Positions 10,338 through 35,788 of a DNA stretch of 37,125 bases are shown here, piece after piece. The notes under the pieces are model-generated. The model made no database searches, was not told the DNA's origin, and worked only from the letters and a program-made list of their open reading frames with translations. The position numbers and the translations under genes are program-made. The stretch's first letter is position 1; each line of letters begins with the position of its first letter. The stretch is from Deltaproteobacteria bacterium (GTDB lineage: Bacteria > Desulfobacterota > Desulfarculia > Adiutricales > Adiutricaceae), in contig JAISFP010000312.1 of assembly GCA_031263525.1 (NCBI GenBank), positions 1 to 37,125 on the forward strand, written 5' to 3'.

Positions 10338-10554
10338 GGCTGTCCTCCGGTGCTCCCTCGGGCGGGGCCCTGTGTCCAGGGGGCCGCCGGCCCCCGTCTC
10401 CGGGCCCTCGGGCCCTCTCCTCGCGGGCCTCCCTGACCCCCTGGGGGCCGGGAAGCTCTTCATCTCACGGGCTCATGGCCCGTGCCCTTCTCCGGGCCCT
10501 GCGGCCCCCTTCCTTCCTTTAACCGGCGGGGGGCCGGCCGGCCTCTTCAGGTCT

Positions 10555-11000
10555 TCGGCCTTTCCGGCCGGCCCCCGCAGGTATCGCCGGCCTTTCCGGT
10601 CGGCCACCCGGGCCTTCCCGGCCTTCAGGCCGGCCCTCCCGGATTTTGCCGGCCTTTCCGGCCGGCCCTTGCAGGTCTCGCCGGCCTTTCCGACCGGCCC
10701 TCCCGGGCATTCCCGGCCTTCCGGCCGGCCCTCCCGGGCCTTCCCGGCCTTCCGACCGGCAATCCCGGACTTCGCCGGCCTTTCCGGCCGGCCCTTGCAG
10801 GTCTCGTCGGCCTTTCCGGCCGGCCCTTGCAGGTCTCGCCGGCCTTTCCGGCCGGCCCTTGCAGGTCTCGCCGGCCTTTCCGGCCGGCCCTTGCAGGTCT
10901 CGCCGGCCTTTCCGGCCGGCCCTCGAAGGTCTCGCCGGCCTTTCCGGCCGGCCCTCGAAGGTCTCGCCGGCCTTCCGGCCGGCCCTTCCGGGCTTCCCCG
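10555..11000. repeat. 32-bp tandem array of GCCGGCC hairpins between flagellin and flagellin-like gene
   Basis: The 717-bp spacer is dominated by repeats of period 32, most regular from about 10780 to 10975 (a CGCCGGCCTTTCCGGCCGGC core plus CCTTGCAGGTCT), becoming degenerate to the left. In the direction of transcription (minus) each unit reads GCCGGCC-GGAAA-GGCCGGC, a 7-bp hairpin with a purine loop. Period 32 is not a multiple of three, so coding is unlikely although several frames stay open. In the flagellin transcript it would form a row of hairpins between the two cistrons. Confidence 0.92.
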
Positions 11001-11054
11001 GCTTCTCCGGGGCCCTCTTCAGGGCCTGCCGGACTTCCCGGCTCCCGGCCTCCC

Positions 11055-19159: not shown

Positions 19160-19913
19160 CGGCCTCCCTCCGGGCCCGCCGGCGACTCTCCTGTTGCCCG
19201 CGCAGGGAAGTCCGGACCGGCGTCGGACCGGACGGCCCGCTGACTTCAGGCCGTCATTGCCCTCTCCGCCCGTCTTTCGGCCTTCCGGCTCCGCCTTCCG
19301 GGCTGGGTTAATCATGGGTTATCCCGCGCGTTCCACGGGCGTCGTCATGACGCCTGCCAGGCATGCCGGCGGACGGAGGGGCAGGGCACCTGCGCGGCAA
19401 GCCAGAAGGCAACGGGCGCACGGATTACCCTGTGTCCGGAGGGGAGCGCCCTGTCTCGCGGGCGCACGGACGGGCCCCTGACCGGAAAGCCGTTCCCCAC
19501 CGTCCAGCGAGGGGAGCGTGGACAAGGGCAGGGCGGGGACCGGGACGGGTGAAATGGGGATTCCGGTCGAACAGGCCGTCTCCTGGCCGAAACTGGGAGG
19601 AAGAGGTGACGGGGAAGATTTTGCGCGGCTCTTGCGCCCGAACCCCTGAATCTGAGCGGGAACGGTGGTAGAATGGGTGCCGCGTCAAAATCCTTCGCCC
19701 ATGACGCCGGCCCCCGGCCAGGAGGCCTTCCGGACGGCCTCCCAGCCTGCGGGTCGCCTCCCCCGGACCTCTCCCCGTTCCCGGCCCGGCTCCCCCGGTT
19801 CTGACCCTCCTCCGGTTCGGTCGCCCCGGTCGCTCTCTCTTGCCCGGACTCTGCCCTCCAAGCCATCCACGGGCCCCTGCAGGCCCTTCGTCCTTCTGCC
19901 CTTGCCAGGGCCG
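19160..19913. other. gene-free GC-rich spacer
   Basis: Open frames exist on both strands, as expected at this composition, but none has a ribosome site plus recognisable sequence. No RNA gene or strong terminator is seen. Confidence 0.5.
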
Positions 19914-20131
19914 CCGCCTGGTCCCATGTCCCAGGGCCGCCGCCTGATCCCATGTCCCAGGGCCGCCGCCTGGTCCCATGTCCTCCGGTCCTTGCCTGCC
20001 CCCCCGTCCCAGGGCCGCCGCCTGGCTCCATGTCCTCCGGTCCTTGCCTGGCCACCCGTCCCAGGGCCCCGCCTGGCTCCATGTCCTCCGGTCCTTGCCT
20101 GGCCATCCGTCCCAGGGCTGCCGCCTGGCCC
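19914..20131. repeat. 26-bp repeat expanding to a 52-bp higher-order repeat
   Basis: Two 26-bp units (CGCCTGGTCCCATGTCCCAG plus GGCCGC) are followed by three 52-bp units in which a CTCCGGTCCTTGCCTGGCC-like segment has been added, then a partial unit. The minus-strand frame reads as Gly/Arg/Gln-rich repeats. It lies just upstream of the beta-lactamase-fold gene; probably noncoding. Confidence 0.88.
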
Positions 20132-20254
20132 CTCCAAGGGCCATTGCCTGGCCCCAGCAAGGACCGAAGGCCGTCTCCGAGGACCTGTCTCGGGCCTCCC
20201 CCGAACTGCAGGGCCTCGAGCCCCGAAATTTACTCACTATCAGGTCCCAACCGC

Positions 20255-21640: not shown

Positions 21641-21667
21641 GGCCGCCGGGGCAGTTTCCCCGGGACT

Positions 21668-21964
21668 CCTCGCCGGGACAGCTTCCCCGAGCCCCCTCGC
21701 CGGGACAGCTTCCCCGATCCCCCTCGCCGGGGCAGCTTCCCCGAGCCCCCTCGCCGGGACAGCTTCCCCGATCCTCCTCGCCGGGGCAGCTTCCCCGAGC
21801 CCCCTCGCCGGGACAGCTTCCCCGAGCCCCCTCGCCGGGACAGCTTCCCCGAGCCCCCTCGCCGGGACAGCTTCCCCGAGCCCCCTCGCCGGGGCAGCTT
21901 CCCTGAGCCCCCTCGCCGGGGCAGCTTCCCCGAGCCCCCTCGCCGGGGCAGCTTCCCGGAGCCT
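21668..21964. repeat. 27-bp tandem array, 11 units
   Basis: Eleven units of CCTCGCCGGGACAGCTTCCC plus CGAGCCC, varying mainly at A/G in GGGACAG/GGGGCAG and GAG/GAT; a decayed unit precedes. Period 27 keeps every frame, so long frames are open on both strands: plus 21594-22115 (SPLAGTASP repeats), plus 21637-21906 (PSPGQLPRA repeats, starting at an ATGA overlap with the previous stop) and minus 21411-22574 (GEGARGSCP repeats). None has a good ribosome site or a recognisable partner sequence, so I do not call a gene, but the period leaves that possible. Confidence 0.96.
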
Positions 21965-22141: not shown

Positions 22142-22387
22142 GTGTTAAGGTGGCTTTTTTCTTGCCGGCCCGAGGCCCGGCCGGGCGCGGCCTCCGGCCC
22201 CGGCGGCAGGGGCCGGTGCGCACGGGTTCGTATCGGGCCTGATCCCGGGCCTTCCAGGAGGTCCTCCGCCGCCTTTCCCGTGCCAGAGCCACCAGTCTCC
22301 CCCGGCAGACCTGACGGGCCGCTCCCCGGGGTCCACGAGCCTTGCGGGGCAGGCCTTTTCTCTTCCCGGCCCTGGTTGCCTGACGGC

Positions 22388-22565
22388 CTTCTTCCGGGCC
22401 CATGAGGCCGGACGTCCCTTCTTCCGGACCCATGAGGCCGGACGTCCCTTCTTCCCGGCCCCTGAGGCCGGGTTGCCCTTTTTCCCGGCACCCGAGGCCG
22501 GGGTGCTTTTTCCCGGCCCCCGAGGCCGGGTTGCCCTTTTCCCGGCCCCTGGGCGCCGGACATTT
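22388..22565 (+). repeat. about 30-bp hairpin repeats in the rpoH leader, 6 units
   Basis: Six units of 28-32 bp of the form CCTTCTTCCCGGCCCCTGAG followed by GCCGGGTTGC. In the third to fifth units CCCGGCC pairs with GGCCGGG (or one mismatch) around a 5-nt loop. The rpoH frame is open through the array, but the uneven unit length and Pro/Arg composition suggest leader and not protein. They would form serial hairpins in the rpoH mRNA. Confidence 0.8.
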
Positions 22566-31599: not shown

Positions 31600-32847
31600 A
31601 TGAGCAGCAAGGTACGCCTGAAAGACCTTCTCAGGGAGAAGGACGCGTTTCAGACCATCTCCGATCGCCTCTACAACTTCTACCTGACCCACACCACCCA
31701 GGTGATCGTGGCCGCGCTGGCCGTGGTGCTGGTGATCCTGGGCACGGTAGCGGGAGTGGCCATATCGCGCTCCCGGGCCGCCAAGGCGTCCAGCGACTAC
31801 TACCTGGCCTACGTCGTGGGCGATCCGACCAGGACCCTGGCCGGCATGGAGGACGTCCGCAGGAAGTACGGCGACGACAGCAGGGCCGGAAGGCTCGCGG
31901 GCTTCGCGATGGTGGACGCCTACATAGGCCTGGAGCGCTACCAGGAGGCGAGGGAGCTGGCCGACAGCCTGGCCTCCGGCCTCCGCGGCCCGGAAACGGA
32001 CCTTGCCCCCATCATCTACAACCTCCAGGGATCCCTGGCCGAGCAGACGGGCGACCTGGAGGCCGCCTACGGCCACTACGAGGCCGCCTGGCTGGCCGTG
32101 GAGGCCCCGGTCCTGGGACCCGACGGAAGGCCTGTAAACGATCCCCTCTTCGCCCAGGCCTCCGGCCCCTTCCGCATGGAGCTCCTGAACTCCCGAGGCC
32201 GCGTGGCCCTGGCCCTGGGCCGCGTCGACAGCGCCCGGATGGCCTACGACGAGCTCCGGAACCGCTATCCCGGCACGCCGCGGGCCTACGCCGCGGCCTA
32301 CAGGCTGGACGAGAGCGAAAGGGCCGCGGCCGCGGCTGACGACACCGTCGTCCTGCCGGACACCCCCTCCGAGATAACCTCCGTGGATCTTCCGCCCGCA
32401 GGCGCCTCCGGGGTGACCTCCGAGGACCTGCCCCCCGCCGGGGCCTCGGCCCCGTCCGCCGGCGACGAGGCCGGAGGTTCGGGCGGTTCGGGGGCCGATG
32501 CCGCGCCTGCGGACGGTGACGCATCCGGCGACGATGCCGCCGCCGGAGACAGTGCATCTTCCGACGACGCCGCCGCTTCCGGAGACGATGCCTCCTCCGG
32601 AGACGATGCCGCTTCCGGAGAGGGCTCAGTTCCCGCCACTTCCCAAAACGAGGCGGCCCCGGCAGCCTCGGGCGACGGGGCGGCAGCCGGCGACGGGGCC
32701 GAGTCTGCCGCATCCGGCGACGGGGCGACCGGCAGCTCGGACGTTCCAGCATCTGGCGACACGGCCGCCGGGGCCGCGTCCGAGACAGGGGACCAGCCTG
32801 CGGACAGGCCCAGAAACTTCCGCTCCCGCTCGCGCAGGGCCAGGTAG
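31600..32847 (+). CDS. YfgM-like TPR membrane protein with Ser/Gly/Asp-rich tail
   Basis: 415 aa. A cytoplasmic N-terminus (RLKDLLREKDAFQTISDRLY) precedes one transmembrane helix (about 36-58, VIVAALAVVLVILGTVAGVA) and a TPR-like periplasmic region to about residue 245 (LAGFAMVDAYIGLERYQEAR, IIYNLQGSLAEQTGDLEAAY, NSRGRVALALGRVDSARMAY, ELRNRYPGTPRAYAAAYRLD). The order TM helix then TPR_21-type repeats matches YfgM, the ancillary SecYEG/periplasmic chaperone partner. The C-terminal 165 residues are low-complexity (SGDDAA, ASGDGAA, PPAGAS units) encoded by short GGAGACGATGCC-type repeats, and end in a basic RSRSRRAR; this tail is absent from typical YfgM. The ATG at 31600 places the helix correctly. 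Confidence 0.85.
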   Translation: MSSKVRLKDLLREKDAFQTISDRLYNFYLTHTTQVIVAALAVVLVILGTVAGVAISRSRAAKASSDYYLAYVVGDPTRTLAGMEDVRRKYGDDSRAGRLAGFAMVDAYIGLERYQEARELADSLASGLRGPETDLAPIIYNLQGSLAEQTGDLEAAYGHYEAAWLAVEAPVLGPDGRPVNDPLFAQASGPFRMELLNSRGRVALALGRVDSARMAYDELRNRYPGTPRAYAAAYRLDESERAAAAADDTVVLPDTPSEITSVDLPPAGASGVTSEDLPPAGASAPSAGDEAGGSGGSGADAAPADGDASGDDAAAGDSASSDDAAASGDDASSGDDAASGEGSVPATSQNEAAPAASGDGAAAGDGAESAASGDGATGSSDVPASGDTAAGAASETGDQPADRPRNFRSRSRRAR

Positions 32848-33009
32848 CCTGGCCCGGCGGCCTTCGCCCAGGCACGGGGACCAGCGCGGGAGCCAGGCTG
32901 CAGCCGCCCAGGCACCGGATTCTTTCTGACGGCCGGCCTTCCTGACGGACGGCGGGCCGTCGTTTTCTGATAGGAGGGCCATGATGCCTTCCGGCGGGCC
33001 GGCCTTCCG

Positions 33010-33735
33010 GAAGAGCCCGGACGGCCCCTGTCCGGCCTGCTTTCAGTAACGGCCCGGACGGCCCCCCGTCCGGCCAGCTTTCTGAAACGGTCAGGACGGC
33101 CCCCGTCCGGCCTGCATTCAGAAACGGCCCGGACGGCCCCCGTCCGGCCAGCTTTCATTGACGGCCCGGACGGCCTCCGTCCTGCCTGCTTTCAGAAACG
33201 GTCATGGCGCCCCCGTCAGGCCAGCTTTCATTAATGGCCCGGACGACCTCCGTCCTGCCTGCATTCAGAAACGGTCATGGCGCCCCGTCAGGCCAGCTTT
33301 CTGAAACGGTCAGGGAGGTCTCAGTCCGGCCAGCTTTCTTAAACGGCCAGGGCGGTCTCAGTCCGGCCTGCTTTCTGTAACGGACAGGGCAGCCCCCCGT
33401 CCCGCCTGCTTTCAGTAACGGGACGGCCCCCGTCCGGCCTGCTTTCATTAACGGCCAGGGCGGCCCCCGTCCGGCCAGCTTTCATTAACGGCCAGGGCGG
33501 CCCCGTCCAGCCTGCTTTCATTAACGGCCCGGATGGCCTCCGTCCGGCCAGCTTTCATTAACGGCCAGGGCGGCCCCCGTCCGGTCAGCTTTCATTGACG
33601 GCCCGGACGGCCCCAGTCCGGAGTGCTTTCAGAAACGGCCAGGGCGGCCCCCGTCCGGCCAGCTTTCATTGACGGCCCGGACGGCCCCCGTCCGGCCTGC
33701 TTTCAGAAACGGCCAGGGCGGCCCCCCGTCTGACG
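33010..33735. repeat. 37-bp hairpin array, 19 units
   Basis: Nineteen units recognisable by GCTTTC or GCATTC boxes about 37 bp apart (33040 to 33697). Each has the form GCTTTCATTAACGGCCAGGG then CGGCCCCCGTCCGGCCA. Where the sequence reads CGGACGGCCCCCGTCCG it forms a 7-bp stem with a CCC loop. Units tend to alternate between CCAGC and CCTGC before the box, hinting at an older 74-bp dimer. Period 37 excludes a continuous protein. There are no unique spacers, so it is not a CRISPR array. It fills the spacer between the YfgM-like and SPOR genes; 32848-33010 contains nothing recognised. Confidence 0.97.
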
Positions 33736-33854
33736 GGGCGCGGCCGGCAGGCCGGCCCGGAACCCCTCCGGACACGGACGAGGGCCCGGCGACCATCCCC
33801 CCGGGCCCGGACCTCAAGCTCTCCGGGCACCGAGACCTCCCAGGGAGGCCCCCC

Positions 33855-35423
33855 ATGGCATTCGACCGCGACGACCGAGACACCAGAGACGACCGCGATC
33901 CCATCCTTGTCGACCACGACGAGGACGTCGACGGTGAAGACGAGGAGTGGTACGAGGAGGACCTGGGCCCAGAGCCCGAGTACACCAGCACCGGCAAGTC
34001 CGGCCCGACCGTCAAGATAGTGGCCGTGTGCCTGGCAGTGGTCCTGGCGGCAGTCCTCCTCTACGTCTACTCCAGGACCTCCGGAGACCAGCCTGCCGTC
34101 CGGACGGCCGGGGCCGGGTCTCCTGTCGCGGCCGCCCCTTCCGGCGGCGATGCGGGAAGCCCCGGGACCGGCGGTCCCGCTGCTCCCGAGGGCCAGGCCC
34201 CGGGCGGCGACGCCGGGCCCGGAACCGAGACGGCCGGCACCGGGGCTCCTGCGGCATCGTCCGCCGGGACCGGCACCCCCCCGGCAGGCGGGACCATTCC
34301 TGCGGCGGTCGGGAGCCTCGTCCCCCCGTCGTCCCCCGAGCCCGACGTTTACTTTTCCCCGGGCCCGGACGCGCCAACCTCCGAGACGCCCGAGGTCGAC
34401 GTCACCACCCCCGATCCCGCAGACGATCCCGCCCTTGCAGCCGGGTCCGTTGCCCCGGCTGGCTCCGGCCCCCCGCCACCGGTGGCGGATCCCGCCGCGG
34501 CGGGCGATCCTGCCGACATCGAGGCGCTCTCGGCCTCGCAGGCCGGGACCGGGGCCGGCGACGGCGAGGATGCCGTTTCCGAGCCCGGAACCGGGACGGA
34601 GGCCGCCTCCGATGGTCCTGACGGCGAAGCTTCCGCAGAGCCCGAAGGCAGCGCCCCCGGCATCGTCGCTGACGGCGAGCCGGCGGGCGAGCCGGCCCCC
34701 CCCAGGGTCATACCCCAGCCCAGGAGGACCGATCTGCCCGGCTCCGCCGGGGAAGGGGAGGGCGCCTCCACGTCCGCCGCCGCAGCTCCTGCAGCATCGG
34801 CACCGGCCCCTGCCGCCTCCAGCCCCGCCGCTGCCGCTCCTGTAGCCTCCACTCCTTCCGCTTCCATGTCTCCCGCGGCAGCCCCGGCGACATCTGCCCC
34901 GGCGGCCTCCAGGCCTTCAGCTGCCGCCCCGGCGGCCTCCAGGCCTGCCGCTGCCGGACCGGCGACACCTGCCCCGGCGGCCTCCAGGCCTGCCGCTGCC
35001 GCACCGGCGACACCTGCCCCGGCGGCCTCCAGGCCTGCCGTTGCCGCATCGGCGACACCTGCCCCGGCGGCCTCCAGGCCTGCCGCGACCGTCCCCGCCG
35101 CGACGCCTCCTGCCGTCTCCCAGACCGAGGCCATAGCCTCCTCATGGACGGTCACCTTAAGCGGCGCGAGGGACAGGGCGGCGGCCCAGCGGATTTTGGA
35201 CAGCCTTAAGCCTCACGGCGGGTCCGCGCACTTCTACATCACCGAGGTCACCCCAAACGACGTCCCCTACTTCAGGGTGCGCATGGGCTTCTTCTCGTCC
35301 AAGGAGGTCGCGGACGCCGCCGGCAAGGACGTCTCCGACAAGGCTGGCGGCTATGCCGACTTCTGGTCGTCCCAGCCCACGGAGGCGGAGTTCAGCAACA
35401 ACGGGGGCAGGGTGGTCAACTGA
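33855..35423 (+). CDS. SPOR-domain membrane protein
   Basis: 522 aa. A short acidic cytoplasmic N-terminus (VDGEDEEWYEED) is followed by one transmembrane helix (about residues 54-74, VKIVAVCLAVVLAAVLLYVY), a long Pro/Ala/Gly periplasmic linker and a C-terminal SPOR domain (about 430-505: SSWTVTLSGARDRAAAQRIL, SLKPHGGSAHFYI, PYFRVRMGFFSSKEVADAAG). SPOR domains bind denuded septal glycans and usually target proteins to the division site, so this is probably a division or peptidoglycan-associated protein like FtsN/DedD in layout. The start at 33855 follows AGGGAGG; the frame is open back to 33669 but only into the hairpin array. The linker contains 15-residue repeats of ATPAPAASRPAAA type. Confidence 0.92.
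   Translation: MAFDRDDRDTRDDRDPILVDHDEDVDGEDEEWYEEDLGPEPEYTSTGKSGPTVKIVAVCLAVVLAAVLLYVYSRTSGDQPAVRTAGAGSPVAAAPSGGDAGSPGTGGPAAPEGQAPGGDAGPGTETAGTGAPAASSAGTGTPPAGGTIPAAVGSLVPPSSPEPDVYFSPGPDAPTSETPEVDVTTPDPADDPALAAGSVAPAGSGPPPPVADPAAAGDPADIEALSASQAGTGAGDGEDAVSEPGTGTEAASDGPDGEASAEPEGSAPGIVADGEPAGEPAPPRVIPQPRRTDLPGSAGEGEGASTSAAAAPAASAPAPAASSPAAAAPVASTPSASMSPAAAPATSAPAASRPSAAAPAASRPAAAGPATPAPAASRPAAAAPATPAPAASRPAVAASATPAPAASRPAATVPAATPPAVSQTEAIASSWTVTLSGARDRAAAQRILDSLKPHGGSAHFYITEVTPNDVPYFRVRMGFFSSKEVADAAGKDVSDKAGGYADFWSSQPTEAEFSNNGGRVVN
34959..35093 (+). repeat. 45-bp in-frame repeat inside the SPOR gene
   Basis: Three units starting at 34959, 35004 and 35049, each encoding 15 residues of the type PATPAPAASRPAAAA; shorter related units precede from about 34770. 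The period is a multiple of three and lies in the linker, so it alters linker length only. Confidence 0.9.
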
Positions 35424-35712: not shown

Positions 35713-35788
35713 GCGGGCATAGCTCAGTTGGTAGAGTACGAGCTTCCCAAGCTTGGGGTCGCGGGTTCGAACCCCGTTGCCCGCTCCA
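35713..35788 (+). tRNA. tRNA-Gly (anticodon CCC)
   Basis: A 76-nt cloverleaf with encoded CCA. Acceptor stem GCGGGCA/TGCCCGC, discriminator T (typical of glycine), D arm with AGCTCAGTTGGTAGAG, anticodon stem CGAGC/GCTTG around the loop TTCCCAA (anticodon CCC at 35746-35748), and T arm GCGGGTTCGAACCCCGT-like. It reads GGG codons. It has its own promoter and a strong terminator, and integrase remains follow immediately, so it is likely an integration site. Confidence 0.97.

Follow-up and report, generated by a model that had tools for sequence, protein, structure and literature searches.

A 37-bp tandem array lies between a YfgM-like gene and a SPOR-domain gene

The window analysed here, a stretch of 37,125 nucleotides, belongs to a draft genome of 6.68 Mb (541 contigs, 74% complete). 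Within it, a gene for a YfgM-like TPR membrane protein is followed by a long spacer and by a gene whose product carries a C-terminal SPOR domain (Table 1). As the first-pass annotation had proposed, the spacer between these two genes contains an array of about 19 units of 37 bp at 33010–33735; Tandem Repeats Finder (TRF) places it at 33015–33726, with a period of 37, 19.4 copies and 79% match. A period of 74 bp scores slightly higher (9.7 copies, 83%).

Table 1. Features of the yfgM-SPOR locus, in window coordinates.
Feature	Position	Strand	Basis
YfgM-like TPR membrane protein gene, flanking the array	31600–32847	+	
Intrinsic terminator downstream of yfgM, also present in G005, the closest congener	32927–32966	+	Terminator scan, G005 alignment, folds
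37-bp tandem array, ~19 units (minisatellite)	33015–33734	+	TRF, unit cutting, alignment
Two-unit (~74 bp) duplication, units 4-5 to 6-7, 93% identical	33150–33294	+	
Second two-unit duplication, units 15-16 to 17-18, 91% identical	33550–33697	+	
SPOR-proximal 73-bp leader, conserved in congener G005	33782–33854	+	Alignment
SPOR-domain protein gene, flanking the array	33855–35423	+	Pfam PF05036, E 1e-8

Cutting the array at a GC(T/A)TTC core yields 18 full units plus end units, mostly 37 bp in length (range 33–38 bp). Alignment of the 18 units gives 14 invariant columns and a mean column identity of 84%. Within the unit, described previously as well conserved, the spacer is not uniformly GCTTTCATTAACGG: positions 8–11 vary among AGAA, ATTA, TGAA, ATTG and other sequences. 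The two alternating sub-types that had been described amount to a weak trend, with p = 0.056 for the difference between lag-2 and lag-1 identity (permutation), p = 0.043 for alternation of the first base between units (13 of 17) and p = 0.32 for alternation of CCGG and CAGG (10 of 17). The high identity between the duplicated two-unit blocks is compatible with growth in steps, through slippage or unequal exchange.

At least four stops interrupt each of the six frames, indicating that the array is not protein-coding, in agreement with the first-pass annotation. Furthermore, Markov shuffles of the sampled sequence contain no arrays of this class, indicating that the array did not arise by chance. 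With several head-to-tail copies of a unit longer than ~10 bp, and with block duplication of those units, the array has the properties of a minisatellite. A CRISPR array was considered and rejected, because the whole 37-bp unit repeats and there are no unique spacers.

Alignment with congener G005 reveals two conserved blocks on either side of the array. In particular, the block at 32922–32997 holds a strong intrinsic terminator (fold z −4.1 here and −3.0 in L021), while the block at 33782–33854 adjoins the SPOR start codon and likely contains the SPOR ribosome-binding site and possibly the SPOR promoter. Since the array sits between these blocks, no conserved signal assigns it to the SPOR transcript, an argument from anatomy. 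No sigma-70-type promoter-like site was found within 32600–34000. The array ends ~120 bp upstream of the SPOR ATG at 33855, and so does not stand just before the start codon, where it had been placed.

Downstream, the SPOR gene carries 45-bp repeats at 34881–35086 that form an in-frame Ala/Pro-rich linker, and a tRNA-Gly (CCC) gene follows at 35713–35788. An Rfam scan of the window returned this tRNA-Gly as its sole match, and no RNA family for the array.

The array occurs at a single locus among the genomes searched

Five congeners, as well as more distant members of the family, keep the yfgM-SPOR gene pair. The spacer between the two genes measures 1007 bp here, versus 457 (G001), 384 (G002), 225 (G003), 423 (G004) and 224 bp (G005) in the congeners, as read from gene ends. 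None of the five congener spacers contains the array or a single unit scoring above shuffled sequence, and the array is therefore not a conserved cis-regulatory leader of SPOR.

A search for the unit elsewhere in the genome, which the first-pass annotation had suggested as a check, found none in the 6.68-Mb draft: all 17 pattern matches fall inside the array. Likewise, the array is absent from 36 other genomes of the family, save for one 25-bp match near threshold. In viral contigs, the 16-mer core has 12 single scattered matches and none in tandem, consistent with chance.

The unit is palindromic, but its stem is marginal

The consensus unit is palindromic, as reported previously, and forms the stem GGCC-x-GGACGG / CCGTCC-GGCC, with ten pairs and one bulged base. 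Its stability is marginal, being reached by 34 of 1000 dinucleotide shuffles. Across the units, 162 of 177 stem cells (91.5%) are paired, compared with 153 ± 2.6 in a simple mutational null (8/5000); this excess is inflated, because units that arose by duplication share stem cells by descent, which are not independent observations. Variation in the stem comprises an A/G wobble common to half of the units, other one-sided wobble changes and many broken pairs. The one compensated pair, G-C to T-A, occurs in two units that duplicate each other. Stem substitutions in the array look largely neutral. The RNA of the whole array is predicted to fold better than shuffles (z −6.5), as expected for a repeated palindrome, while the minimum-energy fold of the 720-nt RNA keeps only about 8 of the 19 unit hairpins because the units pair with one another.

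These data bear on two regulatory roles. In the first, the array would be a 5′ leader of SPOR, whose mRNA hairpins tune translation or decay and whose unit number tunes expression. The array precedes SPOR and shares its strand, and this position, the whole-array fold and the slight excess in pair retention are in line with such a role. The row of mRNA hairpins described in the first-pass annotation is not supported as a functional element of SPOR. However, the predicted folding is mixed rather than a hairpin row, the stem is marginal, a conserved terminator precedes the array and conserved SPOR-side sequence follows it, the promoter scan of the region is empty, and congeners lack the array despite their conserved gene order. 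We therefore consider a SPOR leader quite improbable.

In the second, the array would insulate transcription, its units serving as successive weak terminators (a GC hairpin and then GCTTTCATT) that back up the yfgM terminator. A T-containing spacer does follow each hairpin on the + strand, and one unit, at 33534, passes the terminator scan. However, the spacer is only weakly T-rich, the upstream terminator is itself strong and conserved, and the three terminator-like sites in the scan, two of which are the upstream terminator, do not clearly exceed the 1.2 ± 1.5 found in shuffles. An insulator is, accordingly, quite improbable.

Unrelated minisatellites are dense throughout the genome

To place the array in its genomic context, we surveyed non-overlapping arrays with a period of 15–130, at least 3 copies and a TRF score of at least 120. 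The 518 kb of this genome that were sampled hold 137 such arrays, corresponding to 26.5 per 100 kb and 6.7% of bases, versus none in shuffled controls. When their units are clustered, 129 of the 133 groups have a single member. By simple scaling, the whole assembly would hold roughly 1,800 arrays. Draft assemblies probably under-count arrays; of 129 arrays in the sampled contigs, 20 are located at the end of a contig or stretch. In the window itself, further large minisatellites with unrelated units are present at 10534–11017, 19905–20132, 21644–21963 and 22361–22561.

In small samples of relatives (48–320 kb), array density is 20.9 (G001), 10.5 (G002), 7.0 (G003), 4.2 (G004) and 16.0 (G005) per 100 kb in the congeners. 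Family members outside the genus have 3.1 per 100 kb, and the sampled relatives from the order and class have none. Within the genus, density is highest in the two assemblies of greatest size.

The arrays share a GC-rich composition, with a GC content of 0.73 in their units versus 0.63 in the rest of the sequence. A single motif behind all arrays was rejected, as 6-mers such as GCCGGA are enriched at most ~3-fold and the units are simply GC-richer. A hairpin as the common design of the arrays is likewise unsupported, the unit hairpins of the class showing no marked excess (mean z −0.26 to −0.38). Of the 137 arrays, 82 have a period that is a multiple of three, an excess that would be expected if some of them fall within reading frames. 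A perfect 8-bp repeat, TATTCACA × 13, at one contig start (L177:1–106) differs from the GC-rich arrays found in other places.

Termite-gut metagenome work places Candidatus Adiutrix in the Adiutricaceae (PMC9137090). The named relatives with a YfgM match are metagenome-assembled genomes titled Deltaproteobacteria and Candidatus Adiutrix, and, judging from these relatives, the window probably comes from a termite-gut bacterium. A literature search found no paper on tandem repeats in this family and no usable baseline for tandem-repeat density in bacteria.

Repair genes are present, and mutS itself carries an array

This genome encodes MutS, MutL and SbcD, indicating that simple gene loss does not explain the repeat load. 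A missing mismatch-repair system or SbcCD hairpin nuclease was accordingly rejected as the cause, although altered function of these proteins could still play a part. The mutS gene carries an in-frame array of 48 bp × 8.1 at L175:4871–5255 (G000:C184:8870–9254), with units like SGSGPLPADVPAGGEA, located between conserved MutS regions.

At approximately the same place in mutS, two congeners carry low-complexity inserts of other kinds. In sbcD, an insert of ~160 bp interrupts the match (L177:2094–2978, G000:C446) between profile positions 193 and 214, and a similar split is present in G001, G003, G004 and G005.

Discussion

The array is most likely a lineage-specific, GC-rich minisatellite without dedicated function, in a genome that carries a great many others of unrelated sequence. 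It probably grew between the conserved yfgM terminator and the SPOR leader through slippage or unequal exchange, with some of the steps adding two units at once; the stem may have aided expansion through replication stalling, and array length probably differs between strains. We infer the absence of function; a regulatory role, though conceivable, is required by no result here. Two observations speak against neutrality, namely the excess of paired stem cells, inflated as it is, and a consensus unit more stable than most of its shuffles. A neutral minisatellite, the reading that the first-pass annotation had set against its own proposal, is the better supported.

Two further readings were considered. 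An array of protein-binding sites, parS- or iteron-like or an anchor for a nucleoid protein, might be built on the invariant GC-TTC...ACGG plus the stem, and 14 invariant columns over 18 units could be read in this way. However, such conservation is expected from recent duplication, the unit is present at a single locus without dispersed copies and is absent in congeners, and the surrounding genome holds many unrelated arrays, making a binding array very improbable. Least plausible of all are mobile palindromic elements of the REP/BIME or MITE-like type: REP/BIME units are GC-rich and intergenic, as is the palindrome here, but the units of the array run strictly head-to-tail, in direct tandem arrangement, and the single locus, with no dispersed copies in the draft, contradicts mobility.

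The array also resembles other intergenic repeats. The MIRU-type repeats of mycobacteria are likewise tandem, tens of bp long and located between co-directional genes, but MIRUs recur at many loci as one family, whereas the unit described here occupies one locus only. Bacterial minisatellites and VNTR loci of the MLVA type have been reviewed (PMC3899988), and VNTR-type loci are treated as minisatellites in PMC2884548, which also notes REP/BIME as palindromic units. The array shares with these loci its head-to-tail units of more than 10 bp, intergenic position, restriction to one lineage and multi-unit duplications. Its setting differs from the usual one, in that array density in this genome is far above that in the order and class relatives sampled (26 versus 0 per 100 kb).

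By itself, a single array of this kind is ordinary; of greater interest is how many unrelated minisatellites the genome carries. With about an even chance of being correct, we propose that minisatellites have expanded genome-wide in a genus of bacteria related to the Adiutricaceae and probably living in termite guts, amounting in this genome to ~7% of sampled sequence, extrapolating to well over 1000 mostly unrelated arrays, and reaching conserved genes, including mutS. If this is true, the genus would serve as a natural model, in bacteria, of runaway growth of tandem repeats and its link to genome enlargement. If the density gradient (26 here, 4–21 in congeners, ~3 in other genera and 0 in the order and class) holds on complete genomes, the limits on bacterial tandem-repeat growth would become testable by comparing members of one genus.
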